Source of the DNA: Actinocorallia populi | GTDB lineage: Bacteria; Actinomycetota; Actinomycetes; Streptosporangiales; Streptosporangiaceae | Assembly (NCBI RefSeq): GCF_002995495.1 | Contig: NZ_PVZV01000001.1 | Coordinates: 310,001 to 374,000, forward strand | Direction: 5' to 3' | Length of the DNA stretch: 64,000 nt | In this document: piece after piece, positions 51,231-64,000 of the stretch | Layout: each line of letters begins with the position of its first letter | How positions within the stretch are numbered: the first letter of the stretch is position 1 | Notes under the pieces: model-generated | Seen by the model: only the letters and a program-made list of their open reading frames with translations | The model's database searches: none | What the model was told of the DNA's origin: nothing | Made by a program: the position numbers and the translations under genes

Positions 51231-51905
51231 ATGGCTCAGCACCTGCTTCACATCGACAGCACCGCGGCTACCCGGGGATCCGACTCCAAGCAGCTCGCCG
51301 CCGTCTTCCGCCGTGTCTGGGCCGAGGAGTGCCCGGCGGGCACCGTGGTCCACCGCGACCTGGCGACCGACCCGCTGCCGCACCTGGACGAGGCGGCGAT
51401 TTCGGCCCAGTTCGTGCCGAAGGAGGGTTGGAGCCCCGAGCAGCGGGCGTCCAGTGCGCTGCGCGATGAGCTGATCGGCGAGCTGCTGGAGGCCGAGGGG
51501 CTGTTGATCAGCGCCCCGATGTACAACTGGAACGTGCCCTCCACCCTCAAGGCGTGGCTCGACTGGGTGCTCCAGCAGGGCCGCATCCTGCCCTACGGAG
51601 ACGGAGCCGGTCCGCTCGCGGGACGGCCGGTGACCGTGGTGCTCACCTACGGCGGCGGCTACATGCCGGGGGCTCCGCTGGAGAAGTGGGACCACCTGGA
51701 CCCGTACCTGCGCACGGTGTTCACCGACGCGCTCGGCATGGACCTCGCCGTCATCACCGCGCAGCTCACCCTCGCGGGGCGGGCGCCGGGGATGGACCAC
51801 CTGGTGGAGCTGGGCAGACAGTCGCGGATCGACGCGGAGAAGGCGATCGAGGAGCGCGCCCGCCGGTTCGCCGGCCTCGGCGGCCGGGTGACGGCGGCCG
51901 TCTGA
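51231..51905 (+). CDS. FMN-dependent NADH-azoreductase (AzoR-like flavodoxin-fold)
   Basis: 224 residues. IDSTAATRGSDSKQLAA is the FMN-phosphate loop. ISAPMYNWNVPSTLKAWLDW is the AzoR signature (PMYNFxIPxxLKxWxD) and TYGGGYMPG the FMN ring loop. It reduces quinones, azo and nitro compounds with NAD(P)H, in the cytosol. GAGAGG precedes the ATG. A strong bidirectional stem-loop separates it from the convergent UvrA-like gene, which marks a natural left border for the biosynthetic region. Confidence 0.92.
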   Translation: MAQHLLHIDSTAATRGSDSKQLAAVFRRVWAEECPAGTVVHRDLATDPLPHLDEAAISAQFVPKEGWSPEQRASSALRDELIGELLEAEGLLISAPMYNWNVPSTLKAWLDWVLQQGRILPYGDGAGPLAGRPVTVVLTYGGGYMPGAPLEKWDHLDPYLRTVFTDALGMDLAVITAQLTLAGRAPGMDHLVELGRQSRIDAEKAIEERARRFAGLGGRVTAAV

Positions 51906-51974: not shown

Positions 51975-54458
51975 TCAGCCGGACAGCGCCTCCTTCAGGA
52001 ACCTGCCGGTGTGCCCCGTGCTCCCGGCGACCTCCTCGGGTGTGCCCGCGGCGACCAGTTTCCCGCCCCGGTCGCCTCCGTCGGGGCCGATGTCGACCAC
52101 CCAGTCCGCCGTCTTGATCACATCGATGCAGTGGCTGACGGTGATGACGGTGTGCCCCTTGTCCACCAGGCTGTGCAGCACCGTCAGCAGGCGGTCGACA
52201 TCGCTCGAGTGCAGCCCGTTCGTGGGCTCGTCCAGCAGGTACAGGGTGTGCGCGCCCGCCTTGCGCTGCAGCTCGTTGGCGAGCTTGATGCGCTGTGCCT
52301 CGCCGCCCGACAGGGTGTTCGCGGGCTGCCCCAGGCGCAGGTAGCCGAGCCCGACCGCGCACAGCACCTGCAGCGGGGCGACGATCGCCGGCACGCCCTC
52401 GAAGAAGTCGAGCGCCTCGGCGATGGGCAGTTCCAGGACCTCCGCGATCGTGCGGCCCCGGTAGCGGACCAGGAGGGTCTCCTCGTTGTACCGGGCGCCT
52501 TCGCACTTGTCGCACCGCAGGAACACGTCCGGAAGGAAGTGCATCTCCATCCTGACGGTTCCGTCGCCCGAACACCCCTCGCAGCGCCCGCCCGGCGAGT
52601 TGAAGGAGAACCGCCCGAGCTTGAAGCCGCGCGCCTTGGCCTCCTCGGTCCGCGCGAACTCCTTGCGTATCTGGTCGAAGATCCCCGTGTAGGTGGCGGG
52701 GGTGGACCGGCCGGACCTGCCGATCGGCGCCTGATCCACCCGGATGACGCGGTCGACGTGGGCGAGGCCCTCGATCCGGTCGTGGGCGCCGGGCGGCGGC
52801 GCCTCGCCGCCGAGCGCGCCCTCCACCGCCGGGTACAGGATGGCGTCCACCAGCGTCGACTTGCCCGCGCCCGAGACCCCGGTGACGGCGACGAAGCAGC
52901 CCAGCGGGAACGCCGCGTCGATCCCGGTGAGGTTGTGCTCCCGCGCCCCCCGCACCATGATCTCGTACCCGGGCCGCGGCGCCCTCCGCGGCGGCACGGC
53001 GATCCGGCGCCTGCCGCTGAGGTAGCCGCCGGTCAGCGACTCCTCGTCGGCCAGCAGGTCCGCCACCGGGCCGGCGAACGTCAGCTCGCCCCCGTGCTCG
53101 CCCGCCGCCGGACCCAGCTCGACCACCCAGTCCGCGGCCCTGATCACCTGGTGGTCGTGCTCCACCACGGCCACGGTGTTGCCCTGGTCGCGCAGCGTCC
53201 GCAGGGTCGAGACCAGGTGTTCGGTGTCCTTGGGGTGCAGCCCCGCGCTCGGCTCGTCCAGGACGTACAGCAGCCCGAACATGTTCTGGCCGAGCAGGCC
53301 CGCCATCCTGACCCGCTGGGCCTCGCCGCCCGACATGGTGCGGGCCGGCCGGTCCAGGGTCAGGTAGTCGAGGCCGACGTCGACCAGGTACCCCAGCCGC
53401 TGGACGATCTCCCCGGTCGCCTGGGCGGCCACCTCGCCGTCCCGGCCCGGCAGCCGCAGCTCCTCGAAGAAGCGCAGGCAGTCCGCGACCTGGAGCCCGG
53501 TCGCCTCGGCGATGCCGAGTCCGCCGACCTTCACCGCGAGCTGCGCGGGGAGCAGCCGCCCTCCGCCGCAGGCGTCGCACCGCGCGGGCCGCATGTAGTT
53601 CTCCAGCTGGCCGAAGCTCTCGCCCTGCTTGGCGCGGTACCGCTCGTACAGCCAGGGCGCCGCCCCGACGAACGTCAGGTCCTCCACCCCGCCTCCGCCC
53701 TTGCGGTACTTGCGGCACCGCACCGGGATGCCCGTGGCGTACAGCAACCGGTCCCGCAGGTCCTCGGGCAGCTCGCGCCAGGGCGTGTCCAGGCTGTGGC
53801 CCTCGGCCAGCACCAGGGCACGTGACTTGTTCTGTTCGGGTTCGGCGAAGTTCGTCCGCCACGGCGCGATGGCGCCCTCGAGCAGCGACAGGCCGTCATC
53901 GGTGACCAGCGTCTCCGGGACGACGACCAGGCGGGTACCCACCCCGAGGCACTCCGGGCACTGCCCGAACGGCAGGTTGAAGGAGAACGCGCCAGGGGAC
54001 ATGTCCGGCACCGGGGTGTCGTGCCCCTCCGGGCACACCGGCGCGGATCCGGTGCCCGGGTCCTTCAGCTCCTGGTCGCACACGGTGCAGTGCGGGCGGC
54101 CGCTGCGCGCGTACACCACCCGCATCAGATCGTAGATCTCCGTCGCCGTGCCGACCGTCGACCTGGGGCTGCGGGAGGCGGAGGAGCGCTGGTCGACGGC
54201 GACCGCCGTGCACATGCCCTCCAGCCGGTCCACGGCGGGCTTGTCCAGCTGCTGCATGAACTGCCGCGCGAACGTGGACATCGACTGCAGCTGCCTGCGC
54301 TGCCCCTCCGCGTAGACGGTGGCGAAGGCCAGGGACGACTTGCCCGAGCCCGAAACGCCGGTGAACACGGTCAGGGTCCGGTGCGGCAGGTCGACGTCGA
54401 CGTTCTTGAGGTTGTGCTCTCTGGCGCCGCGCACCACGAGTTTGTCCGGAAGTGCCAT
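51975..54458 (-). CDS. UvrA-like excinuclease ATPase of the drug-resistance (DrrC) type
   Basis: 827 residues, shorter than housekeeping UvrA (about 950), as expected for class II UvrA/DrrC proteins missing the UvrB-interacting insert. Two ABC ATPase halves: Walker A GVSGSGKSS near 34 and GVSGAGKST near 526; signatures MSGGEAQRVRMAG near 376 and LSGGEAQRIKLAN near 716. Zinc-knuckle Cys pairs are present (CPECLGVG, CEGCSGDG, CDKCEGA). DrrC removes intercalated daunorubicin from DNA. AAAGGGAG precedes ATG at 54458. The location beside biosynthetic genes supports self-resistance. Confidence 0.92.
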   Translation of the reverse strand: MALPDKLVVRGAREHNLKNVDVDLPHRTLTVFTGVSGSGKSSLAFATVYAEGQRRQLQSMSTFARQFMQQLDKPAVDRLEGMCTAVAVDQRSSASRSPRSTVGTATEIYDLMRVVYARSGRPHCTVCDQELKDPGTGSAPVCPEGHDTPVPDMSPGAFSFNLPFGQCPECLGVGTRLVVVPETLVTDDGLSLLEGAIAPWRTNFAEPEQNKSRALVLAEGHSLDTPWRELPEDLRDRLLYATGIPVRCRKYRKGGGGVEDLTFVGAAPWLYERYRAKQGESFGQLENYMRPARCDACGGGRLLPAQLAVKVGGLGIAEATGLQVADCLRFFEELRLPGRDGEVAAQATGEIVQRLGYLVDVGLDYLTLDRPARTMSGGEAQRVRMAGLLGQNMFGLLYVLDEPSAGLHPKDTEHLVSTLRTLRDQGNTVAVVEHDHQVIRAADWVVELGPAAGEHGGELTFAGPVADLLADEESLTGGYLSGRRRIAVPPRRAPRPGYEIMVRGAREHNLTGIDAAFPLGCFVAVTGVSGAGKSTLVDAILYPAVEGALGGEAPPPGAHDRIEGLAHVDRVIRVDQAPIGRSGRSTPATYTGIFDQIRKEFARTEEAKARGFKLGRFSFNSPGGRCEGCSGDGTVRMEMHFLPDVFLRCDKCEGARYNEETLLVRYRGRTIAEVLELPIAEALDFFEGVPAIVAPLQVLCAVGLGYLRLGQPANTLSGGEAQRIKLANELQRKAGAHTLYLLDEPTNGLHSSDVDRLLTVLHSLVDKGHTVITVSHCIDVIKTADWVVDIGPDGGDRGGKLVAAGTPEEVAGSTGHTGRFLKEALSG

Positions 54459-54584
54459 GATCTCCCTTTCCTGAGCGGTGGCGTTCCACCGTCGCAGGGG
54501 CTCCTCGACGCGCACTTGACCCGACTTCCAGAGCGGCCCGGCACGTTTGCCGCAAGATGGTCGTACCGACAAAGGAGACAAGAC

Positions 54585-55688
54585 GTGCTCACCCTCCGGG
54601 CCCTCAACCGCGCCTACCTTGACCGGCAGCTGCTGCTACGCCGCTCGGAGATGACGGTGCCGCAAGCTCTGGAGCACCTGGTCGGGCTCCAGGCGCAGTC
54701 CACGCACACCTGGTACCTCGGCCTGTGGACCCGCCTCGCGGACTACACGCCCGAGCCCACGGGGCAGCTGCTCACCGACCGGCGGGTGGTCCGGATGGCG
54801 CTCATGCGCTCCACCATCCACCTGGTGACCGCCGACGACTGCCTCTGGCTCAGGCCCCTGGTCGAGCCGGTCATCGAGCGGATGACCAAGGCCGTGTTCG
54901 GCCGGAACGTCGCCGGTCTCGAGCGTGCCGAGATCGAGGCCGAGGCCCGGCGCCTGATGCGGGAGGAGCCGCGGACGTTCAGCGAGCTCGGCCGCCGCAT
55001 GGCCGAGCGGTGGCCCGGCCACGACCCCGCCTCGATGGCCCAGATGGCCCGCGCGTACGTCCCGCTGGTCCAGGTGCCGCCGCGCGGAGTGTGGGGCAGG
55101 ACCGGGCAGGCCGCCCACCTCCCGGTGGAGACCTGGCTGGGTCGGCCGGTCGATCCCGGCGCCTCCCTGGAGACCCTGGTCCTGCGCTACCTGGCGGCGT
55201 TCGGGCCCGCCACGGTCCGCGACGTCCAGCACTGGAGCGGCCTCACCCGCCTGGCCGAGGTCGTGGACCGGCTCAGGTCCCGGCTCGCGGTGTTCCGCGG
55301 CGAGGACGGGCGCGAGCTGTTCGACCTGCCGGACGCCCCGAGGCCCGACCCGGACACCCCCGCCCCGGTCCGCTTCATCTACGACTTCGACAACCTGCTC
55401 CGCTCGCACGCCGACATCACCCGGGTGAAGACCGTGGACTTCGCCGCGCACGGGTTCACCGCGCGGACCGGCCAGGAACCCCAGGTGGTCCTCGTGGACG
55501 GCTTCGTGGGCGCCACCTGGACGCTGGTCACCAAGCGGGGCACCGCGACCCTGACCGTCCGGCCGTTCCGCGAGCTCACCGCGACCCAGCGGGACGACCT
55601 GTACTCCGAGGCCGAGGCCATGATCGCGTTCTCCAGCCCGAAGGCGAAGGCCCGCGACATCGTGCTGGAGCCGCCGACTCCCGGGTGA
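54585..55688 (+). CDS. HTH_42 winged-helix protein, AlkZ-like DNA glycosylase candidate
   Basis: 367 residues of the HTH_42 superfamily. LLLRRSEMTVPQALEHLVGL is followed by the motif Q36-A37-Q38, matching the catalytic QxQ of AlkZ, the azinomycin self-resistance glycosylase (YcaQ has QxD instead). VVRMALMRSTIHLVTADDC, FSELGRRMAERWPGHDPASM (winged helix), YDFDNLLRSHADITR and DGFVGATWTL follow in order. AlkZ-type enzymes unhook bulky N7-guanine adducts and crosslinks. GTG at 54585 is set by AAAGGAG. Housekeeping homologues without known substrate also exist. The UvrA-like gene stands divergent, so the two could share control. Confidence 0.82.
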   Translation: MLTLRALNRAYLDRQLLLRRSEMTVPQALEHLVGLQAQSTHTWYLGLWTRLADYTPEPTGQLLTDRRVVRMALMRSTIHLVTADDCLWLRPLVEPVIERMTKAVFGRNVAGLERAEIEAEARRLMREEPRTFSELGRRMAERWPGHDPASMAQMARAYVPLVQVPPRGVWGRTGQAAHLPVETWLGRPVDPGASLETLVLRYLAAFGPATVRDVQHWSGLTRLAEVVDRLRSRLAVFRGEDGRELFDLPDAPRPDPDTPAPVRFIYDFDNLLRSHADITRVKTVDFAAHGFTARTGQEPQVVLVDGFVGATWTLVTKRGTATLTVRPFRELTATQRDDLYSEAEAMIAFSSPKAKARDIVLEPPTPG

Positions 55689-56465
55689 TCAGGCCGTGGC
55701 GCGCCGGTTGCGGTCCTCGAGCCGCTGCTGCAGCACGTTGATCCCGTCGAGCCAGCCTTCGTGGTCGGTCACCCGGGCGGCCGCGTGGTCGGCCGCCTCG
55801 GGATGCGGGAGGATCAGGAAGCGCCCTTCCTCGATGCCCTTGAGCACGGCGTCCGCGACCTCCTCCGGCCCGATCGCGGCCGAGGTGAGCATCAGGTCGG
55901 CCGAGCCCTCGGAGACGTGGTGCAGCCCGGTGCGCACCCCGCGCGGGCACACCGCGTGCACCTCGATCCCGCGGTGCCGGTAGGTGACCGCCAGCCATTC
56001 CGCGAAGGCGAGCGCCGCGTGCTTGGACACGCTGTACGGAGCGGAGCCGATCATGGTGGTCATCCCCGCGGCCGAGACCGTGGCGACGAAGCGGCCCCGG
56101 CCGCGCTCCAGCCAGCCGGGGAGCAGCTCGCGCGCCGCCCGGACGTGCGCCTTGAGGTTCACCTCGAGGGCCGAGTCCCACACCTCCTCCGGTGTCTCGG
56201 GGCCGCCGGTCGGCGCGATCCCTGCATTGGCGCAGAAGATGTCGACGGTCCCGCCCAGCGCGTCGAGGGCGGCCGGCACGATGGCGCAGGCGTCGCCGGG
56301 CAGGGCCGTCCCCCCTATCTCGGCGGCGACCGCCCCGGCCCGCTCCGGATGCCGGTCGTTGACCACGACCTGGGCGCCCTCGGCCGCGAACCGCCTGGCC
56401 AGGGCGGCGCCGATGCCCCGGCCCGCCCCGGTGACGACGACCTTGGCGCCGATCAGGCTCTCCAT
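55689..56465 (-). CDS. Short-chain dehydrogenase/reductase near the cluster edge
   Basis: 258 residues, classical SDR: VTGAGRGIGAALARRF, FCANAGIAPTGG, Ser in TVSAAGMTTM, and YSVSKHAALAFAEW. HAVCPRGVRTGLHHVS follows, and the C-terminal RLEDRNRRATA is polar. The substrate could be a polyketide or an alcohol; no feature decides. Its stop meets the HTH_42 stop with no gap, and its start is 13 bases after the epimerase stop, so it is the last gene of the minus-strand run 59,911 to 55,689. Confidence 0.88.
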   Translation of the reverse strand: MESLIGAKVVVTGAGRGIGAALARRFAAEGAQVVVNDRHPERAGAVAAEIGGTALPGDACAIVPAALDALGGTVDIFCANAGIAPTGGPETPEEVWDSALEVNLKAHVRAARELLPGWLERGRGRFVATVSAAGMTTMIGSAPYSVSKHAALAFAEWLAVTYRHRGIEVHAVCPRGVRTGLHHVSEGSADLMLTSAAIGPEEVADAVLKGIEEGRFLILPHPEAADHAAARVTDHEGWLDGINVLQQRLEDRNRRATA

Positions 56466-56478
56466 CGTTCCTGCCTCC

Positions 56479-57108
56479 TCATCGTGCGGCCGGGCGCCGG
56501 TGCGCCACCGCGCCCCAGGCCGCGTCCGCCTCCCGGCATGTGGCGTAGTCGGGCAGCAAGTGCCGCTCTCTCGCCTGGGCGAGCGTGAGCCCTTCCCTGT
56601 CCCGTGGCGACAGGATCGGCTCCATCCCCTCCGGGATGGGCAGGCGCAGTTCGGGGTCGAGGGGGTTCAGGGCGTGTTCGTACTCCGCGACGTAGGCGGT
56701 GGAGAGCAGGTAGGCCATGGTGGTGTCGTCCTCCAGCGAGACGAACAGGTGCCCCACGCCCACCGGGAGGTACACCGAAGTGAACCCGTCCTGGCCCAGC
56801 GTGACCGCGTCCCAGCGCCCGAACGTCGGCGACCCCGTCCTGGTGTCCACGACGACGTCGAGCGCCCGGCCGCGCGAGCAGAAGGCGTACTTGGCCATTC
56901 CCGGCGGTGTCGCGGTGAAATGGACACCCCGGACGACCCCGCGGCGAGACCGGCTGTAGCTGCACTGCGCCACCGGAAAGAGCGCGTGCCCCACTGCCTC
57001 GGTGAACGCCGCCTCCTGGTACGGCGAGAGGAACACGCCGCGGTCGTCGGGGAAGGAGCCTGCGGCGAACGCGTAGGCTCCCTCGACCGTCAGTTCATGC
57101 GCCCGCAT
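56479..57108 (-). CDS. dTDP-4-keto-6-deoxyhexose 3,5-epimerase (RmlC family)
   Basis: 209 residues, cupin fold. FPDDRGVFLSPYQEAAFTEA, the catalytic His in RGVVRGVHFTATPPGMAKY, DVVVDTRTGSPTFGRWD, and LPVGVGHLFVSLEDDTTMAY then STAYVAEYEHALNPLDPEL carry the RmlC signature (His, Asp and Tyr base/acid). Antibiotic-cluster members act as 3,5- or 5-epimerases and set the L-configuration of deoxysugars. It sits 3 bases after the fused glycosyltransferase gene on the same strand, so it is co-transcribed with it. Confidence 0.9.
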   Translation of the reverse strand: MRAHELTVEGAYAFAAGSFPDDRGVFLSPYQEAAFTEAVGHALFPVAQCSYSRSRRGVVRGVHFTATPPGMAKYAFCSRGRALDVVVDTRTGSPTFGRWDAVTLGQDGFTSVYLPVGVGHLFVSLEDDTTMAYLLSTAYVAEYEHALNPLDPELRLPIPEGMEPILSPRDREGLTLAQARERHLLPDYATCREADAAWGAVAHRRPAAR

Positions 57109-57111
57109 GGC

Positions 57112-59001
57112 CTACTTACCCCGCACTCCGACGAAGAGGCCCGGCCCCACGTGCTCGTACGGCACGTACTCCACGGTGAGCCCCGCCCGCTCGAACGCCG
57201 CTTGGTACCGCTCCCTGTCGAACAGGCTCATCACGTGCGTGTCCGTGAAGTGCCGCAGGCCGGACTCGCGCTCCGCGACCACGTAGTTCACCTCCATCCG
57301 GCTCGCCCGTCCGTGCGGCTCGCGCACCGTGTGGGAGATCCGCGAGATGGTGCGCCCGTCCACGGCGACCACGTCGCCCGCGACATGGCCGGGCGTGAAC
57401 GTGTCCGGGAACCACCACGGCTCGACGACGACGACGCCGCCGGGGTTCAGATGCCGGGCGAAGGTGCGCAGCGTCGCGTCCAGGTCCTCCTCGGTCGGCA
57501 GGTAGCCGAACGAGCTGAACATGCAGGTGATCGCGTCGAAGGTCTCACCGAGGGTGAAGTCCCGCATGTCGCCCTGGGTCACCGGGACATCGGGCACGTA
57601 CGACCTGGCGATCTCCAGCATCTCCGCGGAGATGTCCAGGCCCGCCACGCGGTCGAAGGCACCGGTGAAGAACTTCAGGTGCGAGCCGGTGCCGCAGGCG
57701 ACGTCGAGCAGGGACGCCGCCGCCGGGGCGCGGTCGCGGACGTGCCCGATGACGATCTCGGATTCGGCGGCGTAGTCCTTGCCCCGCCCCCGGTAGAACG
57801 CCTCGTACACATCCGCCCGCGCGTAGATGTCGACGATGTCGTCCGCCGGCACCCGCGCTCCCCGCTCGACGAGCCTCTCCAGCACGGAGACGACCTCGTC
57901 GGCCGGAGGCAGTGCGGCGATCTCGCGGGCGATCTCGCGGGCGCGGTCGCGGTAGGAGGAGTCGGCGAGCAGCTTCTCGCAGGCCGCGGTGATCGCGGCG
58001 GTGGTGTTCTCGCCGAGCGGCAGGGTGATCGCCGCGCCGTAGTCCGCGATCCGCTGCGCCGCCGGGACGGACACCCCGCGCGCGGGGATGAGGAGCTGCG
58101 GCACCCCGGCGCTCAGCGCGGTCATCTCCGTGGCCCCGCCGCCGTGGTGGACCAGCAGGTCGCAGGTGGGCACCAGCACGTCCAGCGGGACCCAGCCGAC
58201 CCTGCCCTCGGGGAACTGCGTGCGCAGCTCCGACGCGATGTCGTCGGGCGCCGCGACCACGATCTCCAGGTCGGAGAACGCCGGGTTCCCGGCGAGCTCC
58301 CGCAGGAACTCGGCGCCCAGCAGCTCGTCCTTGCCCACCCGGCTTCCTCCGGTGACGCAGACCCGGCGGCGCTCGCCCCGCGTGTACATCCAGGGCTCCA
58401 GGGGGAGCTGCCGGTTGGCCGCGACGAAGCGGAGCGGCTGGTCGTCCCGGGCGTCGGCCGGGAGCAGGCTCGGCGGCGTGATCTCGATGAACAGGTCGGG
58501 CTCGGGGAGGCCGGTCAGGCCGAGCTCGCTGAGCTCGGGTTCCAGCTCGGCGACGGCGGCGGCGTCGAAACCGGTGTTGTCGATGGCGTCCCAGGCGTGC
58601 CGGACGTACGGGACGCCCAGCTCGCGCGCCAGGAGGCCGGCGGCGTAGCAGAGCGAGCCGCCGACCACCAGCTGCGGCCGCCAGTCCCGGCCGAGCGCGC
58701 TGAGCCCCTCGCGGCCGGCGAGCGCGAGCCTGGCGAAGGCGCTGCCGACGAACCGCTGCTCCTCGGCCAGATTCGTCGGGGGCTTCACCCTGTTGCCGGA
58801 TCGGTCGGTGAACATGCACTGCCCCAGGCTCACGGGGGTGACCGCCACGGCCGGGAGGCCGATCTCGGTGGCGGAGGCCGCCGCCTCCGCGGGGGCCGCC
58901 ACCAGGATGTCGTGTCCCGCGTTCCGGGCCGCCGTCGCCAGTGGTGCGAGCGCGAACACGGTCGGCCCGCCGGCGCCGCCTGTGACGAACAAGATACGCA
59001 T
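57112..59001 (-). CDS. Fused glycosyltransferase (GT1) and aminosugar N,N-dimethyltransferase
   Basis: 629 residues in one uninterrupted frame. Residues 1-375 form a GT-B glycosyltransferase: MRILFVTGGAGGPTVFALAP, VVGGSLCYAAGLLA, and donor-site HHGGGATEMTALSAGVPQLL near 283-302, the layout of UrdGT2/AknS-type enzymes for dTDP-deoxysugars. From about 385 it is a DesVI/TylM1-type methyltransferase: AFYRGRGKDYAAESEIVI, LLDVACGTGSHLKFF near 428-442, GDMRDFTLGETFDAITCMFS, and VVVEPWWFPDTFTPGHVAG. It should attach a sugar and N-dimethylate a 3-aminosugar. AGAAGGAG precedes ATG at 59001. I recall no described fusion of this kind. Confidence 0.9.
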   Translation of the reverse strand: MRILFVTGGAGGPTVFALAPLATAARNAGHDILVAAPAEAAASATEIGLPAVAVTPVSLGQCMFTDRSGNRVKPPTNLAEEQRFVGSAFARLALAGREGLSALGRDWRPQLVVGGSLCYAAGLLARELGVPYVRHAWDAIDNTGFDAAAVAELEPELSELGLTGLPEPDLFIEITPPSLLPADARDDQPLRFVAANRQLPLEPWMYTRGERRRVCVTGGSRVGKDELLGAEFLRELAGNPAFSDLEIVVAAPDDIASELRTQFPEGRVGWVPLDVLVPTCDLLVHHGGGATEMTALSAGVPQLLIPARGVSVPAAQRIADYGAAITLPLGENTTAAITAACEKLLADSSYRDRAREIAREIAALPPADEVVSVLERLVERGARVPADDIVDIYARADVYEAFYRGRGKDYAAESEIVIGHVRDRAPAAASLLDVACGTGSHLKFFTGAFDRVAGLDISAEMLEIARSYVPDVPVTQGDMRDFTLGETFDAITCMFSSFGYLPTEEDLDATLRTFARHLNPGGVVVVEPWWFPDTFTPGHVAGDVVAVDGRTISRISHTVREPHGRASRMEVNYVVAERESGLRHFTDTHVMSLFDRERYQAAFERAGLTVEYVPYEHVGPGLFVGVRGK

Positions 59002-59104
59002 GCGTCTGTCTCCTTCTGGTGCTGGCCGGAGCGGTCGTCCACCCCGGGATCGACGCCGGCGACCCGGGCGCCCCCGCCTCGGCGGAGGCGCCCGGGTCAC
59101 TCGG

Positions 59105-59911
59105 TCAACGGCTGGCCGCCTTCTTGTACAGGTGGCTCGCGAGCGGCACGAACACGATCAGCAGGACCGCGGTCCAGATCAGCGAGGCGGCGACGGCGTT
59201 CTCCATCGGCCAGGCGCCGGACTGCGCGACTCCCGCGGGCGGGGTGTTCCCGAACAGCTCCCGGGTGGCCTGGGCGACCGCGGACACCGGATTCCATTCG
59301 GCCAGCACCCGCAGCACCGAGGGCAGGCCCTGACTCGGCACGAAGACATTGGAGATGAACGTGAACGGCAGGATCGCCATGAAGCTGACGTTCGCCAGCA
59401 CCTCGGGGGAACGCACCAGGAGGCCGGCCACGGACATCATCCACGAGGCGGCGTAGGCGAACGCGAACATCAGCGCGTACGCGGCAACGGCGTCGGTCAG
59501 CGAACCCCGGATCCGCCAGCCGACGAGCAGCCCCGTCGCCGTCAGCACGACCATGACGATCGCGATGTTCGCCAGGTCGCTGGTGGTCCGGCCGACCAGC
59601 ACCGCCGAGCGGGCGATCGGCAGGGAGCGGAACCGGTCGATCACGCCCTTCTGCAGGTCCTCCGAGAGCCCGACCGCCGTGTTCGACGCGGTGAACAGGA
59701 TCGTCTGGACCATGATCCCGACGACGAGGAACTCCCGGTAGCCCGTCCCCGGGACGTCGATGGCGCTGCCGAAGACGTACGCGAAGAGGAGCATGAAGAC
59801 GATCGGGGCGATCGTCGAGAAGATCAGGACGTCGGGAACCCGCTGGTTCTTGATGACGTTCCGCTTGGCGATGACCATGCCGTCGCCGAGCGACCGTGTC
59901 AGAGTGGCCAT
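59105..59911 (-). CDS. ABC-2 transporter permease (DrrB-like)
   Basis: 268 residues with six helices (VLIFSTIAPIVFMLLFAYVF, FLVVGIMVQTILFTASNTAV, AAYALMFAFAYAASWMMSVA, ANVSFMAILPFTFISNVFVP and a C-terminal SLIWTAVLLIVFVPLA). The EDLQKGVIDRFRSLPIARSA loop is the ABC-2 coupling segment of DrrB-type drug exporters. The ATG overlaps the ATPase stop (TGATG). It should form the membrane half of the exporter. The following glycosyltransferase fusion starts about 100 bases downstream on the same strand. Confidence 0.93.
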   Translation of the reverse strand: MATLTRSLGDGMVIAKRNVIKNQRVPDVLIFSTIAPIVFMLLFAYVFGSAIDVPGTGYREFLVVGIMVQTILFTASNTAVGLSEDLQKGVIDRFRSLPIARSAVLVGRTTSDLANIAIVMVVLTATGLLVGWRIRGSLTDAVAAYALMFAFAYAASWMMSVAGLLVRSPEVLANVSFMAILPFTFISNVFVPSQGLPSVLRVLAEWNPVSAVAQATRELFGNTPPAGVAQSGAWPMENAVAASLIWTAVLLIVFVPLASHLYKKAASR

Positions 59912-60891
59912 CAGAGCAGCTCCTTCTCACGGGTGTCCACCGGGGGCGCGTCCTCCACCGGGGTGCCGGTGAGGGTGAGGAAGACCTCGTCCAGCGTCGG
60001 GCGGCGCAGGCCCGCGTCCCTGAGCCGCAGGCCGGCTCCGTCGAGGACGCGGACGCCCGCCAGCAGCGCGTCCGAGCCGTCCGTCACCGGCACGGTCAGC
60101 CGCAGCGCCTTCTCGTCGACGACGATCTCGCCCTTGGCCAGCGGGACCAGTGCGGCACGGGCGGTGACCAGGTCTTCGGTGCGGCCCACGGTGAACTCGA
60201 GGCGTTCACCGTCGAGGCGGTCCTTGAGCTCGTCCGAGGTGCCCTCGGCGATGACCCTGCCGTGGTCGATGACCGCGATGCGGTCCGCCAGCTGGTCGGC
60301 CTCCTCCAGGTACTGGGTGGTGAGCAGCAGGGTGCTGCCGGAGGCCACCAGCTCGGAGATGACCTCCCACATGGCGATCCGGCTGCGCGGGTCCAGGCCG
60401 GTGGTGGGCTCGTCGAGGAACAGCACCGAAGGCCTGGCGACCAGCGCGCACGCCAGGTCGACGCGGCGCCGCATCCCGCCGGAGTAGCCCTTCACCGGCC
60501 GGTCCGCGGCCTCGGCGAGGTCGAAACGCTCCAGCAGCTCGTCCGCGCGCTTCCGGCTGCCCGCCCGGCCCAGGTGGTACAGGCGGCCGACCATGTCCAG
60601 GTTCTCGCGCGCGGTCAGATGCTCGTCCACCGCCGCGTACTGCCCGGACAGGCCGATCCGCTCGCGCACCCGGTCCGCGTCGGCGACGACGTCGAACCCG
60701 GCCACGGTGGCCCGTCCCGAATCGGCCCGCTGCAGGGTCGTCAGCACCTGGACGGAGGTGGTCTTCCCGGCTCCGTTGGGGCCGAGCAGGCCCATCACCG
60801 TGCCCTCCTCGACCGTGAAACTGACGCCGTCCAGTGCGGTCACCGCACCGAAGCGCTTCGTCAGCCCCTCAGCGACGATCGCGTCCGTCAT
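59911..60891 (-). CDS. ABC transporter ATPase (DrrA-like)
   Basis: 326 residues. Walker [15 protein letters not shown] near 38-51, Q-loop [15 protein letters not shown], signature [12 protein letters not shown], Walker [14 protein letters not shown] and switch TTQYLEEAD. The C-terminal extension of about 90 residues ([11 protein letters not shown]) is typical of DrrA-type ATPases that power export of antibiotics such as daunorubicin. GGAGG precedes ATG at 60891. Together with the overlapping permease it is the probable exporter of the cluster product. It is divergent from the aminotransferase. Confidence 0.94.
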
Positions 60892-61045
60892 GGCCACCTC
60901 CATTACGATCATTGGTGTCGTTCGTTGTTCTCCTCATCGGCCCCCAATCTGGGGCGAGGCCCTCGAGGCGGCATCGAGTCCAGGTGGACCGGGTCCCCCA
61001 GCGGCGCTCGAGCATTTCCCGACCCTTGCGCCGCACGCTCCGCCA
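60892..61045. other. Divergent promoter gap between exporter and aminotransferase
   Basis: 154 bases with no gene. An ACGATCATTGGTGTCGTTCG stretch (about 60906-60925) has interrupted ACGA/TCGT arms and could be a regulator site. No clear ribosome site precedes the aminotransferase ATG at 61046. Confidence 0.4.
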
Positions 61046-62167
61046 ATGACCATTCACGTATGGGACTATCTGCCGGAATACGAGAAGGAACGCGACGATA
61101 TCCACGACGCCGTGGACACGGTCTTCCGCTCGGGCAGGCTCGTGCTCGGTGAGAGCGTGCGTCTTTTCGAGGCGGAGTACGCGGCCTACCACGGGATCGG
61201 GCACTGCACCGGCGTCGACAACGGCACCAACGCCGTCAAGCTCGGCCTCCAGGCGCTCGGCGTCGGCCCGGGTGACGAGGTGATCACGGTGTCCAACACC
61301 GCGGCGCCGACCGTGCTCGCCATCGACGGGGCGGGCGCGACCGCCGTCTTCACGGACATCCGCCCCGACACCTACCTCATGGACACCGACCAGGTCGCCG
61401 CCGCCATCACCCCGCGCACCAAGGCGCTGCTCCCGGTGCACCTGTACGGGCAGTGCGTGGACATGGCCCCGCTGCGGCGCCTCGCCGACGAGCACGGCCT
61501 CGCGGTGCTCGAGGACTGCGCGCAGGCCCACGGCGCCCGCCGGCACGGAAGGCTCGCCGGGACGTTCGGGGACGCCGCCGCGTTCTCCTTCTACCCCACC
61601 AAGGTCCTGGGCGCGTACGGCGACGGCGGGGCGGTCATCACCGGCAGTCCGGCGGTGGACGCCAGGCTACGGCGGCTCCGCTACTACGGCATGACCGACG
61701 CGTACTACGTCGACGAGACCCCCGGCCACAACAGCCGGCTCGACGAGGTGCACGCGGAGATCCTGCGCCGCAAGCTCCGCAGGCTGGACGAGTACGTCGC
61801 CGGACGCCGCGCGGTCGCCCGCCGCTACGAGGAGGCGCTGAGCGACCTCACCGGGCCCGGCGGCCTCGTCCTGCCCGCCGTCGCCGAGGGCAACGACCAC
61901 GTCTACTACGTGTACGTGGTGCGCCACCCCAGGCGTGACGACATCATCGAGGCCCTGCGCGGCCATGGCATCTCGCTCAACATCAGCTACCCGTGGCCGG
62001 TGCACACCATGACCGGCTTCGCCCACCTCGAATACGCCGAGGGTTCGCTTCCCGTCACCGAGGCGCTGGCCAAGGAGATCTTCTCCCTGCCCATGTACCC
62101 GTCGCTCCCCCGGGAGACCCAGGAGAAGGTGATCAGTGCGCTGCGCGAGGTGCTGACCGGTTGGTGA
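61046..62167 (+). CDS. dTDP-3-oxo-deoxyhexose aminotransferase (DesV/TylB-type, DegT/DnrJ/EryC1)
   Basis: 373 residues, PLP fold-type I sugar aminotransferase. [20 protein letters not shown] is the N-terminus, with [20 protein letters not shown] in the PLP phosphate region. [14 protein letters not shown] and [15 protein letters not shown] follow; Lys186 in [15 protein letters not shown] forms the PLP aldimine. The sequence is closest in style to DesV/TylB (3-amination) rather than the 4-amino PseC/ArnB branch. It makes a 3-amino sugar that the fused N,N-dimethyltransferase can use. A terminator follows. ATG at 61046 lacks a ribosome site. Confidence 0.9.
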
Positions 62168-62178
62168 GGACGTCTGAT

Positions 62179-62208
62179 AGCCGCCCGTTCCGTTGGGAAC
62201 AGGCGGCT
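62179..62208. terminator. Terminator between aminotransferase and flavin oxygenase
   Basis: AGCCGCCCGTTCC (62179-62191) and GGAACAGGCGGCT (62196-62208) pair over 13 positions with one mismatch, closed by GTTG, between convergent genes. Confidence 0.8.
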
Positions 62209-62220
62209 TCGCCGCGCTTA

Positions 62221-63333
62221 CTAGGACTCCTCGAAAAGAGCGTTCGCGTAGTTGGCCGCCGCCCGGGTGATGTCATAGCGCAGCGCCACGTGGCTGGCAG
62301 CGGCGTTGATGTCGCGCCAGAAGCGCTGGAGTGCGCCGGATTCGGACATGCCCCGGGTCCCCGTGGCCGAGAGGAGGCCGGACAGCGCTTCGGTGACCTG
62401 TTCGGCGGCGAAGGCGGCGTTGCGCTGGTTGCGGGCGAGGAGGGCCGGGGCGAAGGTCCGCTCGTCGATGACCCGGGCGTTCTGCTCGACCAGGAAACGG
62501 GAAGTGTCGATCTTCGCTGAGGCGCGGACCAGGTCGACCTGGGTGGCCTCCAGGACCCGCTTGCCCCTGAGCACCGCGGCCGCGGCCTTGAGCGCCCCCT
62601 CGGCGGCACCGACGGCGGGCGCGATGAAGGTGAGGCCGCCGAAGGCCGGGAACGGGATGTTGTGCGTCGGCTGTGTGGACCAGGCGCTCCTGCCCGCCTC
62701 CATGTCGGCACGGGCGAACGACAGGTGGGCCGGGACGAAGACGTCGTCGACGATCACGGTGTGGCTGCCGGTGGCCCGCATGCCCGCGCAGTCCCAGGTC
62801 CGAAGGACCTCGAAGGAGCCCCGGGGAAGGGTGAAGAAGCGCAGCTCCGGGGCCGGATCACCGGGGATGGACGCGCAGAGCAGGGCCCAGTCGGCGAAGT
62901 CCACGCCGCTGATGTAGTCCCAGCGGCCGGTGACGCGGTGGCCGCCGTCCACCTGTTCTGCCTTCCCCATGGGGACGAGGCCGGTCACCAGGCACGTGTC
63001 CGGGCTCGATCCCCACAACTCCTCGTGGCCCGCCTCCGGGAGATGCGCGGCGTACCGCGAGGAAGCCGCCAGCAGGGAGGCGCACCAGCCGGTGGAGGCA
63101 CAACCCCTGGAGACGTTGAGCACGCCCTGGGTCAGCTCTCCGAACGTTCCCTCCCTGCCGCCCCAGCGCGCCGAGACGAAGTGCCGGGCGAAACCGGCCT
63201 CGCGCAGGCCGTCGACGATCTCGGGAGAAAGGGTTCGCGAGGCATCGGCTTCTGCGGCGTGCTGCGCGGCCAACGTACCGAGCTTCTCGGACGCACCGAG
63301 CAGTCCGGTATCGGGCAGTGGGGCGTTGGACAT
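62221..63333 (-). CDS. Acyl-CoA-dehydrogenase-fold flavin oxygenase (ActVA-ORF5/HsaA/nitrososynthase group)
   Basis: 370 residues. SPEIVDGLREAGFARHFVSA and GREGTFGELTQGVLNVSRGC then ASTGWCASLLAASSRYAAHL form the helical N-terminus. VTGRWDYISGVDFADWALL is the beta-domain, and a final SESGALQRFWRDINAAASHV completes the fold. This group uses reduced FMN from a partner reductase to hydroxylate phenols (ActVA-ORF5, HsaA) or oxidise aminosugar nitrogen (KijD3/RubN8). Either would fit this cluster. ATG at 63333 has GTGGAGG upstream. Divergent from the ACP gene, so probably in the same regulon. Confidence 0.85.
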   Translation of the reverse strand: MSNAPLPDTGLLGASEKLGTLAAQHAAEADASRTLSPEIVDGLREAGFARHFVSARWGGREGTFGELTQGVLNVSRGCASTGWCASLLAASSRYAAHLPEAGHEELWGSSPDTCLVTGLVPMGKAEQVDGGHRVTGRWDYISGVDFADWALLCASIPGDPAPELRFFTLPRGSFEVLRTWDCAGMRATGSHTVIVDDVFVPAHLSFARADMEAGRSAWSTQPTHNIPFPAFGGLTFIAPAVGAAEGALKAAAAVLRGKRVLEATQVDLVRASAKIDTSRFLVEQNARVIDERTFAPALLARNQRNAAFAAEQVTEALSGLLSATGTRGMSESGALQRFWRDINAAASHVALRYDITRAAANYANALFEES

Positions 63334-63550
63334 TTCGATGACCTCCACGAAGGGGTTGTGGGATCGCGCGTCACGGCCGACGGTGCTGCTCCCTCCTCGA
63401 AGCGACCTCGCGCGTGGCTGGAGCCGCCGAGGCGGGTTCGCGGGGCCGGCGGTGCTGCGCGGTCACCGCCTCAAGGCTGACGCCAGCACGCCTCGAGCAG
63501 GTCGGCGAACTCTTCGGGCAAGGGGAGCCGAACCTCAAGGAGAGACGAAC

Positions 63551-63799
63551 ATGGCGACACTGACCTTTGACCGGCTGAAGGAAATCCTGCGGACCAGTGC
63601 CGGCGAGGACGAGGGCATCAACCTCGACGGCGACATCATCGGTACCCCGTTCGGCATGCTCGGCTACGACTCTCTGGCGCTGCTGGAGACCGCGGCCCTG
63701 ATCAAGCGCGAATACGGCATCGACGTCACCGACGACATCGCGGAGATCGAGACCCCCGGCGCCCTGCTGGGGTACGTCAACGACAAGATCGCGGCATGA
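63551..63799 (+). CDS. Type II polyketide acyl carrier protein
   Basis: 82 residues. The phosphopantetheine serine is Ser41 in FGMLGYDSLALLETAALIKR; the LGYDSLALLE motif is the aromatic type II PKS ACP signature (not the DSLD of fatty-acid ACPs). FDRLKEILRTSAGEDEGINL and IETPGALLGYVND fit helices I and IV. It carries the growing poly-beta-keto chain for the KS-alpha/beta pair that should lie beyond the window. AAGGAG precedes the ATG; the stop overlaps the next gene by ATGA. Confidence 0.94.
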   Translation: MATLTFDRLKEILRTSAGEDEGINLDGDIIGTPFGMLGYDSLALLETAALIKREYGIDVTDDIAEIETPGALLGYVNDKIAA

Positions 63800-64000
63800 C
63801 CGGGAGGCGGACCGCCTTCGTCACCGGGGCGAGCAGCGGCATCGGCCTCGCCGTGGCCCGGACGCTCGCCGAGCAGGGCATCGCGGTCTTCGGCGTCGCA
63901 AGGGACCTCGGCAGGATGCAGGCCGCGGCCGACAAGCTCGCCGCCGAGGGGCTGGACGTCACCGCCGGGTCCTGCGACGTGACCAGCCGCGACGGCGTCC
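63796..64000 (+). CDS. Polyketide ketoreductase, partial (SDR, act-KR-like)
   Basis: The first 68 residues, running off the right edge: the NADP motif AFVTGASSGIGLAVARTLAE and AVFGVARDLGRMQAAADKLA, as in C-9 ketoreductases of aromatic type II PKSs. ATG overlaps the ACP stop (ATGA), so it is translationally coupled to the ACP, a strong sign of a pathway enzyme. The catalytic Ser-Tyr-Lys and any PDG/XGG region-specific motif lie beyond the window. Confidence 0.9.
   Translation, partial: MTGRRTAFVTGASSGIGLAVARTLAEQGIAVFGVARDLGRMQAAADKLAAEGLDVTAGSCDVTSRDGV

Follow-up and report, generated by a model that had tools for sequence, protein, structure and literature searches.

Pluramycins are potent DNA alkylators, and the biosynthesis of their side chains and sugars is only partly understood. 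In the kidamycin (kid) cluster of Streptomyces sp. W2061, a KSQ loading module and an extension module with a methylmalonyl-type AT and an ER feed a type II polyketide synthase (PKS); KS-alpha, CLF, ACP, KR, cyclases, amino-sugar genes and N-methylation accompany it, with two glycosyltransferases (GTs) and three methyltransferases for two sugars (PMC9452638, PMC10646177). The hedamycin (hed) cluster of S. griseoruber encodes the type I pair HedT/HedU, and a QAFH motif is common to the AT HedF, whose gene lies far from hedT, and to Kid13 AT1-1, which is part of the same polypeptide as the loading module (AT1-1-KSQ-AT1-2-ACP); Kid14 has a methylmalonyl-type AT and an additional ER relative to HedU, whose AT carries a malonyl motif (PMC10646177). 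Hedamycin also carries two sugars, and its cluster encodes a DrrA-like transporter, the UvrA-like HedH11 and the AZL glycosylase HedH4, which excises hedamycin-guanine and in which both Gln residues of the QxQ motif matter (PMC9040887, PMC10646177). The trioxacarcin and LL-D49194 clusters encode the AlkZ-related glycosylases TxnU and LldU, with QxQ in TxnU2 and LldU5 (PMC8934636); TxnO9 forms the pyrone ring, and the starter of trioxacarcin is supplied by isoleucine (PMC9570651).

Here, we compare with these systems a locus of Actinocorallia populi, in a window of 64,000 nucleotides (the whole stretch of DNA that was analysed; contig NZ_PVZV01000001.1, positions 310,001 to 374,000). The end of the window is likely to hold the left portion of an anthrapyran (pluramycin-type) cluster, the span of which runs from window position 51231 to about 34.4 kb beyond the window edge. 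An earlier note on the window had placed the edge of a type II PKS cluster at 51975-64000, with a product of pluramycin or anthracycline type. The genes it named are all present by open reading frame and family assignment, and a quinone reductase (51231-51905) and a short-chain dehydrogenase (55689-56465) are added. Across the 57 kb of the same contig examined beyond the edge, KS-alpha, CLF and an aromatase/cyclase are found as that note had anticipated; the KS-alpha/CLF genes are joined by those for an NTP-transferase, a 2,3-dehydratase and a 4,6-dehydratase, all within 34.4 kb of the edge, which speaks against an unlinked sugar pathway. The type II label holds for KS-alpha, CLF and ACP, but the cluster as a whole mixes type I and type II PKS parts, a feature invisible from the window alone, and a plain type II PKS is ruled out by its two type I proteins. 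Between the two classes offered, a pluramycin is favoured by these starter proteins, the KR, a TxnO9-like cyclase half, a QAFH AT and the AlkZ-like gene. The product is very probably an antitumour-type compound that attacks DNA and is related to kidamycin and hedamycin; given the AlkZ-like (QAQ), UvrA-like and DrrAB-type genes beside the pyrone and hybrid PKS features, it is best read as an anthraquinone-gamma-pyrone DNA alkylator.

Genes, domains, motifs and synteny are observed directly, and chance matches are not a concern at the family and PDB scores obtained. The comparison with hed and kid is mostly by motifs and published text, the only direct hed/kid sequence being the chain of PDB entry 3sju, which we take to be the hedamycin KR. 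Two related clusters, in S. tricolor NRRL B-16925 (NZ_MUMF01000007.1) and in genome G325, share KSIII, AT, both type I proteins and KS-alpha/CLF at 64-81% identity (KS-alpha 80-81%, CLF 76-80%), the AlkZ-like protein at 44-50% and a YcaO-kinase-regulator cassette at 32-76%.

To the right of the window, a KSQ-AT-ACP protein and a KS-AT-DH-ER-KR-ACP protein stand ahead of the type II PKS, matching the kid arrangement and the HedT/HedU pair. The KS of the loading protein has Gln in place of Cys in all nine clusters compared. The extension module combines a YASH (methylmalonyl-type) AT with DH, ER and KR domains; its DH motif has Asp where Gly is expected, which counts against the pluramycin reading. 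An enediyne PKS, suggested by the 1991-aa protein, was rejected, the domains being ordinary KS-AT-DH-ER-KR-ACP. The QAFH motif, found in seven of the nine compared clusters including this one (L015 and G008 deviate), is carried by a discrete AT whose gene and the KSQ gene share 8 bp, which places it between the two published cases, HedF at a distance and Kid13 in fusion. KS-alpha carries Cys (STGCTSG) and CLF carries Gln (SEQAGG). The ACP (63551-63799, plus strand; LGYDSLALLE; PF00550, E 3e-8) is overlapped by 4 bp by the start of the KR gene (63796-64000, plus strand), which continues for 575 bp past the window; the best PDB match of the KR is 3sju (labelled 'Keto reductase'; 399 bits), followed by the actinorhodin KR (312 bits). 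KSIII most resembles 4xs7, a chain from the daunorubicin PKS that we take to be DpsC. A KSIII with an active-site Cys was rejected: the Cys of 'SNGCMAAL' lies off the nucleophile position, which, judged by eye, is occupied by Ser, the nucleophile of DpsC. The chemistry that we infer from these genes, as we do the alkylation and the number and configuration of the sugars, would begin with decarboxylation of a malonyl-type unit by the KSQ loading module; the second type I module would add and process one methylmalonyl unit to give a short branched acyl starter, which the DpsC-like KSIII, bearing this Ser, and the QAFH AT may transfer or gate before extension by KS-alpha, CLF and ACP.

The product of G000:C1:406695-407498 joins two halves in one chain: residues 3-154 match TxnO9 (5z4f, E 2e-49) and residues 159-254 match SnoaB (3kng, E 2e-23). 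The TxnO9-like half supplies the predicted gamma-pyrone-forming cyclase. The ARO/CYC is closest to BexL, and the cluster also encodes a SnoaL_4 protein. The first ring would be shaped by the HedKR-like KR and the ARO/CYC, and the fusion may then close the gamma-pyrone and oxidize the anthrone. A TxnO9-like half, a KSIII and a relative of TxnU/LldU could also belong to a trioxacarcin- or parimycin-like anthraquinone-gamma-pyrone, with the same pyrone and a 2-methylbutyryl-like starter but other late tailoring and no C-glycoside; we regard this as improbable, since the trioxacarcin starter comes from isoleucine whereas this cluster encodes a kidamycin-like pair of type I proteins, and the KR and GT are closest to 3sju and 2p6p, entries that we take to be the hedamycin KR and UrdGT2. 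An anthracycline of the daunorubicin or nogalamycin type would account for the DpsC-like KSIII, the DrrAB/DrrC-like genes, the SnoaB-like half and the SnoaL_4 protein, but the type I modules, the KR closest to 3sju and the TxnO9-like half make it very remote; moreover, the SnoaL_4 match is to a general fold and does not indicate fourth-ring closure.

The cluster has a single GT, fused to an N-methyltransferase in a 629-aa protein (57112-59001, minus strand; GT about residues 1-380, methyltransferase about 395-629) encoded by one open frame with a third-position GC of 0.92-1.0 throughout. The GT half matches 2p6p (labelled 'Glycosyl transferase', E 5e-115), and the methyltransferase half matches the N,N-dimethyltransferase 3bxo (E 2e-82); the scores of 4rie/4rig, presumably LanGT2, are near that of 2p6p, so C- and O-glycosylation are not separated by these matches. 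Sugar assembly is further represented by a 3-aminotransferase (DegT/DnrJ; 61046-62167, plus strand; PF01041, E 4e-108), 80% identical to its G325 counterpart and matching 7b0d (labelled glutamine--scyllo-inositol transaminase, E 3e-93) ahead of 2oga (labelled Transaminase, E 5e-89), which we assume to be DesV, and by an NDP-4-keto-sugar 3,5-epimerase (56479-57108, minus strand; PF00908, E 1.5e-45), the one gene that suggests an L configuration. The classical di-C-glycosylated pluramycin set of two GTs, two N-methyltransferases, a C-methyltransferase and 4-ketoreductase(s) is not found in the cluster: it has no sugar C-methyltransferase gene and, besides the 4,6-dehydratase, no typical 4-ketoreductase (Epimerase-family) gene. 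The syntenic G325 cluster, in contrast, has the full two-sugar set, with two GTs, two N-methyltransferases, one C-methyltransferase and two Epimerase-family genes resembling 4-ketoreductases. The present cluster thus departs from hed and kid, and since it has only the one fusion, we do not place it in the hedamycin/kidamycin di-C-glycosylated subgroup; it represents a natural, apparently mono-glycosylated pluramycin variant with a bifunctional GT-methyltransferase and a cyclase-oxygenase fusion. The short-chain dehydrogenase (55689-56465, minus strand; PF00106, E 3e-37), for which the G325 cluster has no homologue of at least 38% identity over half its length, is a candidate for the missing 4-ketoreduction or for aglycone reduction. 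dTDP-glucose would be converted to a 2,3,6-trideoxy-3-amino sugar, which the bifunctional protein may dimethylate and attach, probably as a C-glycoside.

The fusion is not unique to this cluster. A search of 341 family genomes, with three candidates scored per genome, gave at least four other places with a match across both halves, in G104 without a stop and in G094, G023 and G247 with one internal stop each. Inspection of G104 and G094 showed one continuous frame in the former (36% identical overall) and a stop separating the two halves in the latter.

Probable self-resistance genes lie at the left of the cluster. The AlkZ-like (HTH_42) glycosylase (54585-55688, plus strand; PF06224, E 1e-85) has a QAQ motif (Q36, Q38); it matches AlkZ weakly (5uuj, E 6e-4) in an alignment that coincides at QxQ, both Gln residues are invariant across four aligned sequences, and the protein is predicted to be an AZL family member with the catalytic motif. 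The UvrA/DrrC-like ATPase (51975-54515, minus strand; UvrA_DNA-bind, E 5e-16; TIGR00630, 1032 bits), with counterparts in the clusters of S. tricolor (71% identity) and G325 (38%), is a probable self-resistance protein, and a DrrB-like ABC-2 permease (59105-59911, minus strand; PF01061, E 4.5e-25) adjoins a DrrA-like ABC ATPase (59911-60891, minus strand; PF00005, E 5e-32). The producer may thus survive through DrrAB export, UvrA-like action and excision of adducted bases by the AlkZ-like protein. Among 27 genomes searched, five (S. tricolor, G325, L013, L014 and L015) have an AlkZ homologue no more than 30 kb from KSIII, and four of these five show the highest KSIII identity; in the remaining 22 none lies within 30 kb of KSIII on its contig; because AlkZ homologues also occur away from KSIII in most of the 27, the gene by itself proves little. 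DrrABC also accompany intercalators of the daunorubicin type, the ARO/CYC is closest to BexL and the GT to 2p6p, as might be expected if the product were an angucycline or medermycin-like compound that is C-glycosylated but does not alkylate, and the AlkZ-like and UvrA-like genes served other lesions. The proximity of AlkZ to KSIII in the four KSIII-closest clusters and in L015 argues against this, and type I starter modules and a TxnO9-like half are, to our knowledge, not expected in those classes, so we hold it to be quite improbable.

For the favoured alkylating pluramycin, candidate late oxygenases are at hand. The cluster encodes a P450, 83% identical in S. tricolor, with a ferredoxin, the P450 being a candidate for the HedR/Kid10-type epoxidase of the side chain in pluramycin clusters, and an HsaA/XiaF-type flavin-dependent oxygenase (62221-63333, minus strand; NF045629, 204 bits, under the cut-off of 450) that matches 2rfq (E 2e-42) and XiaF (5lvu, E 8e-34) and is 64% identical to its S. 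tricolor counterpart; one FAD monooxygenase of G325 is matched by no protein of the present cluster, a point against the pluramycin reading. The P450 and flavin oxygenases may produce a reactive side chain or ring, such as an epoxide, that alkylates guanine. The FMN quinone reductase at the left edge (Flavodoxin_2; 51231-51905, plus strand; PF02525, E 4e-32) is counted in the cluster because of its homologues in the G325 cluster (54% identical) and adjoining KS-alpha in S. tricolor (56%).

Embedded in the polyketide cluster is a cassette of a short precursor, a YcaO cyclodehydratase, a truncated SagB-like protein, a histidine kinase and a LuxR regulator. It shares with SagD/SagB-type azol(in)e RiPP systems (TIGR03604, TIGR03605, TIGR03882) a YcaO with a leader-binding domain, both above family cut-offs (TIGR03604, 246 bits against 219; TIGR03882, 122 against 36.9), and differs in its very short candidate precursor, missing SagB dehydrogenase domain, attached kinase and regulator, and polyketide-cluster location. 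In the full-length SagB-like relatives examined (459-491 aa) the SagB domain follows residue 286; the protein here has 212 aa and no family match, so the dehydrogenase part is missing, as in the truncated G325 protein, whereas that of S. tricolor is full length. The dehydrogenase is not known to be needed for azolines. The candidate precursor (G000:C1:398080-398229, minus strand; 49 aa) is 40% identical over 47 columns to a G325 ORF, neither having an NCBIfam match, and has Ser in a C-terminal LPSY, further Ser/Thr earlier and no Cys; we rejected degeneracy for want of Cys, as LPSY fits, by eye, the pattern of some other candidate precursors.

The cassette is found at other loci too and may act as a switch that responds to a peptide signal. 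A YcaO search, with three candidates scored per genome, gave 69 places, of which 51 were examined together with S. tricolor, some loci being cut by contig ends; the 18 left out were G066, G068, G069, G072, G073 and G075 (scores like the examined G071/G074), G038 C4, G039 C106, G040 C10 and G041 C22 (scores like the examined G037 C29/G042) and eight others. A precursor-like ORF occurs within 1 kb in 12 of 28 short-type loci, the corresponding figures being 16 of 958 for control windows of 1 kb and 1 of 16 for LanM-type loci, a motif count that is partly circular because the motif was written after ten candidates had been seen. By eye, precursors were accepted at seven further short-type loci and this genome's own; at 8 of the 28 none was found. 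Among the open PMC papers listed in literature searches, none describes, in its title or the opening of its abstract, a link between such a YcaO cassette and kinases or aromatic polyketides.

In the switch that we tentatively propose, the YcaO would cyclize the 49-residue precursor at Ser/Thr near its C terminus, and the exported peptide would be read by the adjacent kinase and LuxR-type regulator, which would control the polyketide genes. That a modified peptide of its own turns on the cluster, and that the unit, which appears to be akin to larger LanM-SagB RiPP clusters, is a portable autoinduction module captured by several unrelated antibiotic clusters, is jointly possible but doubtful. 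If the cassette does control production, it would offer a handle to wake silent clusters of several kinds. There is a somewhat less than even chance that an unrelated RiPP set, with its own product, lies in the locus by accident. Of the 52 related loci, 16 resemble free-standing RiPP clusters, and sugar or KS-alpha/CLF matches are absent from the 11 kb around them; all 16 show an NHLP-type precursor match, 15 have two kinase/regulator pairs, and 15 have a LanM match (LanM being named by NCBIfam for one locus and by homology to it for the others). Against an accident, deoxysugar or KS-alpha/CLF matches occur no more than 11 kb away at 11 of the 28 short-type loci, and the cassette lies inside the polyketide cluster in this genome, G325 and S. 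tricolor alike. In this genome and G325 it occupies the same position, flanked by carboxyltransferase and metallo-beta-lactamase genes; in S. tricolor it lies at a different place, flanked by UvrA-like and HsaA-like/AlkZ-like genes.

The genes that an earlier note placed at window positions 51975-64000, as the edge of a type II polyketide synthase (PKS) cluster for a dimethylaminosugar-bearing, probably DNA-damaging product, were found there with strong family matches, and to them we add a short-chain dehydrogenase (55689-56465, minus strand) and a Flavodoxin_2 reductase (51231-51905, plus strand) with homologues in two related clusters. Extension to the right (G000:C1:373001-431000, the window being G000:C1:310001-374000; gene starts are from a simple ORF caller and may be off, and that of the discrete AT was set to 375818) reveals the KR (373796-374575; six-digit coordinates are on this contig), KSIII (374639-375658, minus), a discrete AT (375818-376828), KSQ-AT-ACP (376821-379715) and KS-AT-DH-ER-KR-ACP (379705-385680) proteins, an aromatase/cyclase didomain (385677-386615), an acyl-CoA-dehydrogenase-like protein (386612-387766), KS-alpha (387869-389125), CLF (389150-390352), a carboxyltransferase (390349-391959) and a 65-amino-acid ORF (391962-392159). 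Further genes encode a metallo-beta-lactamase-fold protein (398376-399284, minus), a SnoaL_4 protein (399395-399838), a P450 (402322-403542), a ferredoxin (403603-403926, minus), a TAP-like hydrolase (404107-405534) and a SARP (407557-408363, minus).

Homologues in G325, another genome of the family, were identified for 31 of the 37 cluster genes (numbered 57-93; E of 1e-15 or better, identity of at least 38%, over half of the length), and the cluster edges are drawn accordingly. Below these thresholds are the 55689 dehydrogenase, the HsaA-like oxygenase, the ferredoxin, DrrB (32% identity), the 65-amino-acid ORF (40% over 63 columns, with a weaker E) and a short precursor ORF, whose G325 counterpart was found by separate search. 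The evidence supports well a new cluster of a known kind, most probably the pluramycin type, in which the glycosylation set is reduced and two fusions are unusual. A separate small gene group lies to the right of the polyketide genes (418025-424432), encoding class II tRNA-synthetase-like, AurF-like oxygenase, nitronate monooxygenase, NAD_binding_4 reductase, cyclase-like, KSIII-like and luciferase-like proteins, and an 88-amino-acid carrier-like protein without a Pfam match.

The best PDB match of the KR is 3sju ('Keto reductase'; 399 bits versus 312 for the actinorhodin KR), which we take to be the hedamycin KR, HedKR; that of KSIII is a daunorubicin PKS chain, 4xs7 (340 bits), presumably DpsC; and the aromatase/cyclase matches BexL. 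A HedKR structure paper appears in the reference list of PMC7024178. The protein at 406695-407498 joins a SnoaB match to one for TxnO9, the trioxacarcin pyrone cyclase, described in PMC9570651 as a CalC-like protein that forms the pyrone ring. The starter system agrees with the one that PMC10646177 gives for kidamycin, where a second module, containing a methylmalonyl-type AT and an ER, accompanies the KSQ loading protein.

Across nine clusters, including that of A. populi, the loading KS has Cys replaced by Gln in all nine, the extension AT reads YASH in eight (truncation of the gene at a contig end made the G085 reading land on a different AT) and the discrete AT reads QAFH in seven (SPFH in L015, QGFH in G008). 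DH, ER and KR motifs are present in seven, with no match to them in the G008 extension module and G085 again cut by the contig end. The A. populi loading AT reads IAAH, not the VAGH of Kid and L014, so its substrate is not predictable; G325, Streptomyces tricolor and L013 were left out here, their readings having fallen on other ATs. The DH motif, HVVQDTVLVP, carries Asp in place of Gly, as in G325, making DH activity uncertain.

The AlkZ-like protein, a candidate self-resistance factor, has a QAQ motif with both Gln residues invariant in four aligned sequences and matches the AlkZ structure 5uuj weakly (E of 6e-4, single-sequence search). According to PMC9040887, HedH4, the AlkZ-like (AZL) protein of the hedamycin cluster, excises hedamycin-guanine, and both Gln residues of its QxQ matter; a UvrA-like protein and a transporter resembling DrrA belong to that cluster too. 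We examined co-location in 27 genomes: four named ones plus 23 other family members with KSIII matches at 1e-94 or better, drawn from 44 others matching at 1e-60. Five genomes (S. tricolor L012, L013, L014, L015 and G325) carry an AlkZ homologue no more than 30 kb from KSIII, whereas none of the remaining 22 has one at that distance on the same contig, although contig breaks could hide some; at least one homologue occurs somewhere in 26 of the 27. In S. tricolor and L013 the clustered copy is the only one among the matches listed. G232, G085, G008 and other family genomes hold clusters with the same KSIII, AT, KSQ and type II PKS; these clusters have no AlkZ-like gene on the same contig at 30 kb or less, and possibly make related non-alkylating products. 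L013 is a 3.3-Mb metagenome-assembled genome labelled Glaciihabitans, an unexpected genus, and a binning error is possible; its AlkZ lies 28 kb from a pluramycin-like core on the same contig.

The sugar genes comprise an NTP-transferase (399842-400738), a 4,6-dehydratase (405592-406572, minus), a 2,3-dehydratase (400851-402242), a 3-aminotransferase and a 3,5-epimerase, with an N,N-dimethyltransferase and glycosyltransferase joined in one 629-amino-acid protein; C-methyltransferase and 4-ketoreductase-type genes are absent from the cluster as annotated. Whereas A. populi has this single fusion, G325 has a C-methyltransferase, two glycosyltransferases, two N-methyltransferases and, in addition to its 4,6-dehydratase, two genes of the Epimerase family; the best A. 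populi match to one of these G325 genes (38% identity) is on another contig. PMC9452638 gives kidamycin two glycosyltransferases and three methyltransferases and notes sugarless pluramycin-family members, so a one-sugar member is possible. By the 2p6p match alone, C-linkage would be favoured over O-linkage. A second, distantly related glycosyltransferase fused in one frame to a sugar N-methyltransferase occurs at L052 (genome G104).

The most surprising element of the cluster, and that of least certain function, is a peptide cassette (392222-398229) lying 18-24 kb right of the window, between the PKS and sugar genes: a LuxR-type regulator (392222-392827), a histidine kinase (392769-395087, minus), a SagB-like fragment (395189-395827, minus), a YcaO (395836-397956, minus; true start probably about 90 bp further upstream) and the short precursor ORF (398080-398229, minus). 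The YcaO scores above the family cut-offs for SagD and the leader-binding domain. The SagB-like proteins of A. populi (212 amino acids) and G325 (222) lack the dehydrogenase domain, which that of S. tricolor keeps. Candidate precursors at 19 aligned loci (G126 was omitted as near-identical to G128) begin 209-701 bp before the YcaO match; most share an L-x-I-E-D-L-D-like stretch, that of A. populi only loosely, and six, including A. populi (MILPSYK), have (M/L/I/W)-P-(S/T)-(Y/F) near the C terminus.

YcaO relatives at 1e-30 or better occur in 59 of 341 family genomes, A. populi included, and the cassette recurs near other antibiotic-type genes. We surveyed 52 loci (51 of 69 listed YcaO places plus S. 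tricolor), defining a short type by YcaO identity of at least 42% without a LanM/NHLP match. Within 11 kb, the 28 short-type loci have a kinase in 24, a regulator in 25, at least one of these in all, and deoxysugar or KS-alpha/CLF matches in 11; the 16 LanM/NHLP-type loci all have kinase and regulator and none has sugar or KS-alpha/CLF matches, and one of eight loci with a more distant YcaO has a kinase or regulator. Fisher tests (p = 0.003 for sugar/PKS matches, short versus LanM type; p = 6e-8 for kinase/regulator, both types versus distant) are indicative only, the loci being related and the classes drawn after looking. Of the regulator matches listed outside the genome itself, with nine candidates scored per genome, the best 11 share a contig with a YcaO, which is no more than 6 kb away for nine and lies at 13.5 and 26 kb for the others. 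For the five that rank next (G060, G178, G061, G215 and G225) the regulator's contig shows no YcaO match; some proximity is expected by chance because NarL-type regulators are common. In L013, a 60% identical regulator adjoins a metallo-beta-lactamase gene and no YcaO match at 1e-10 was found. We infer that the cassette may have a signalling role. At L113 and 15 similar family loci a YcaO-SagB RiPP cluster is conserved that includes precursors of the NHLP type (TIGR04351 at 59 and 56 bits in L113, under the cut-off of 65) and kinase/regulator genes, with LanM in 15 of the 16 and an ABC exporter in the two read in detail.
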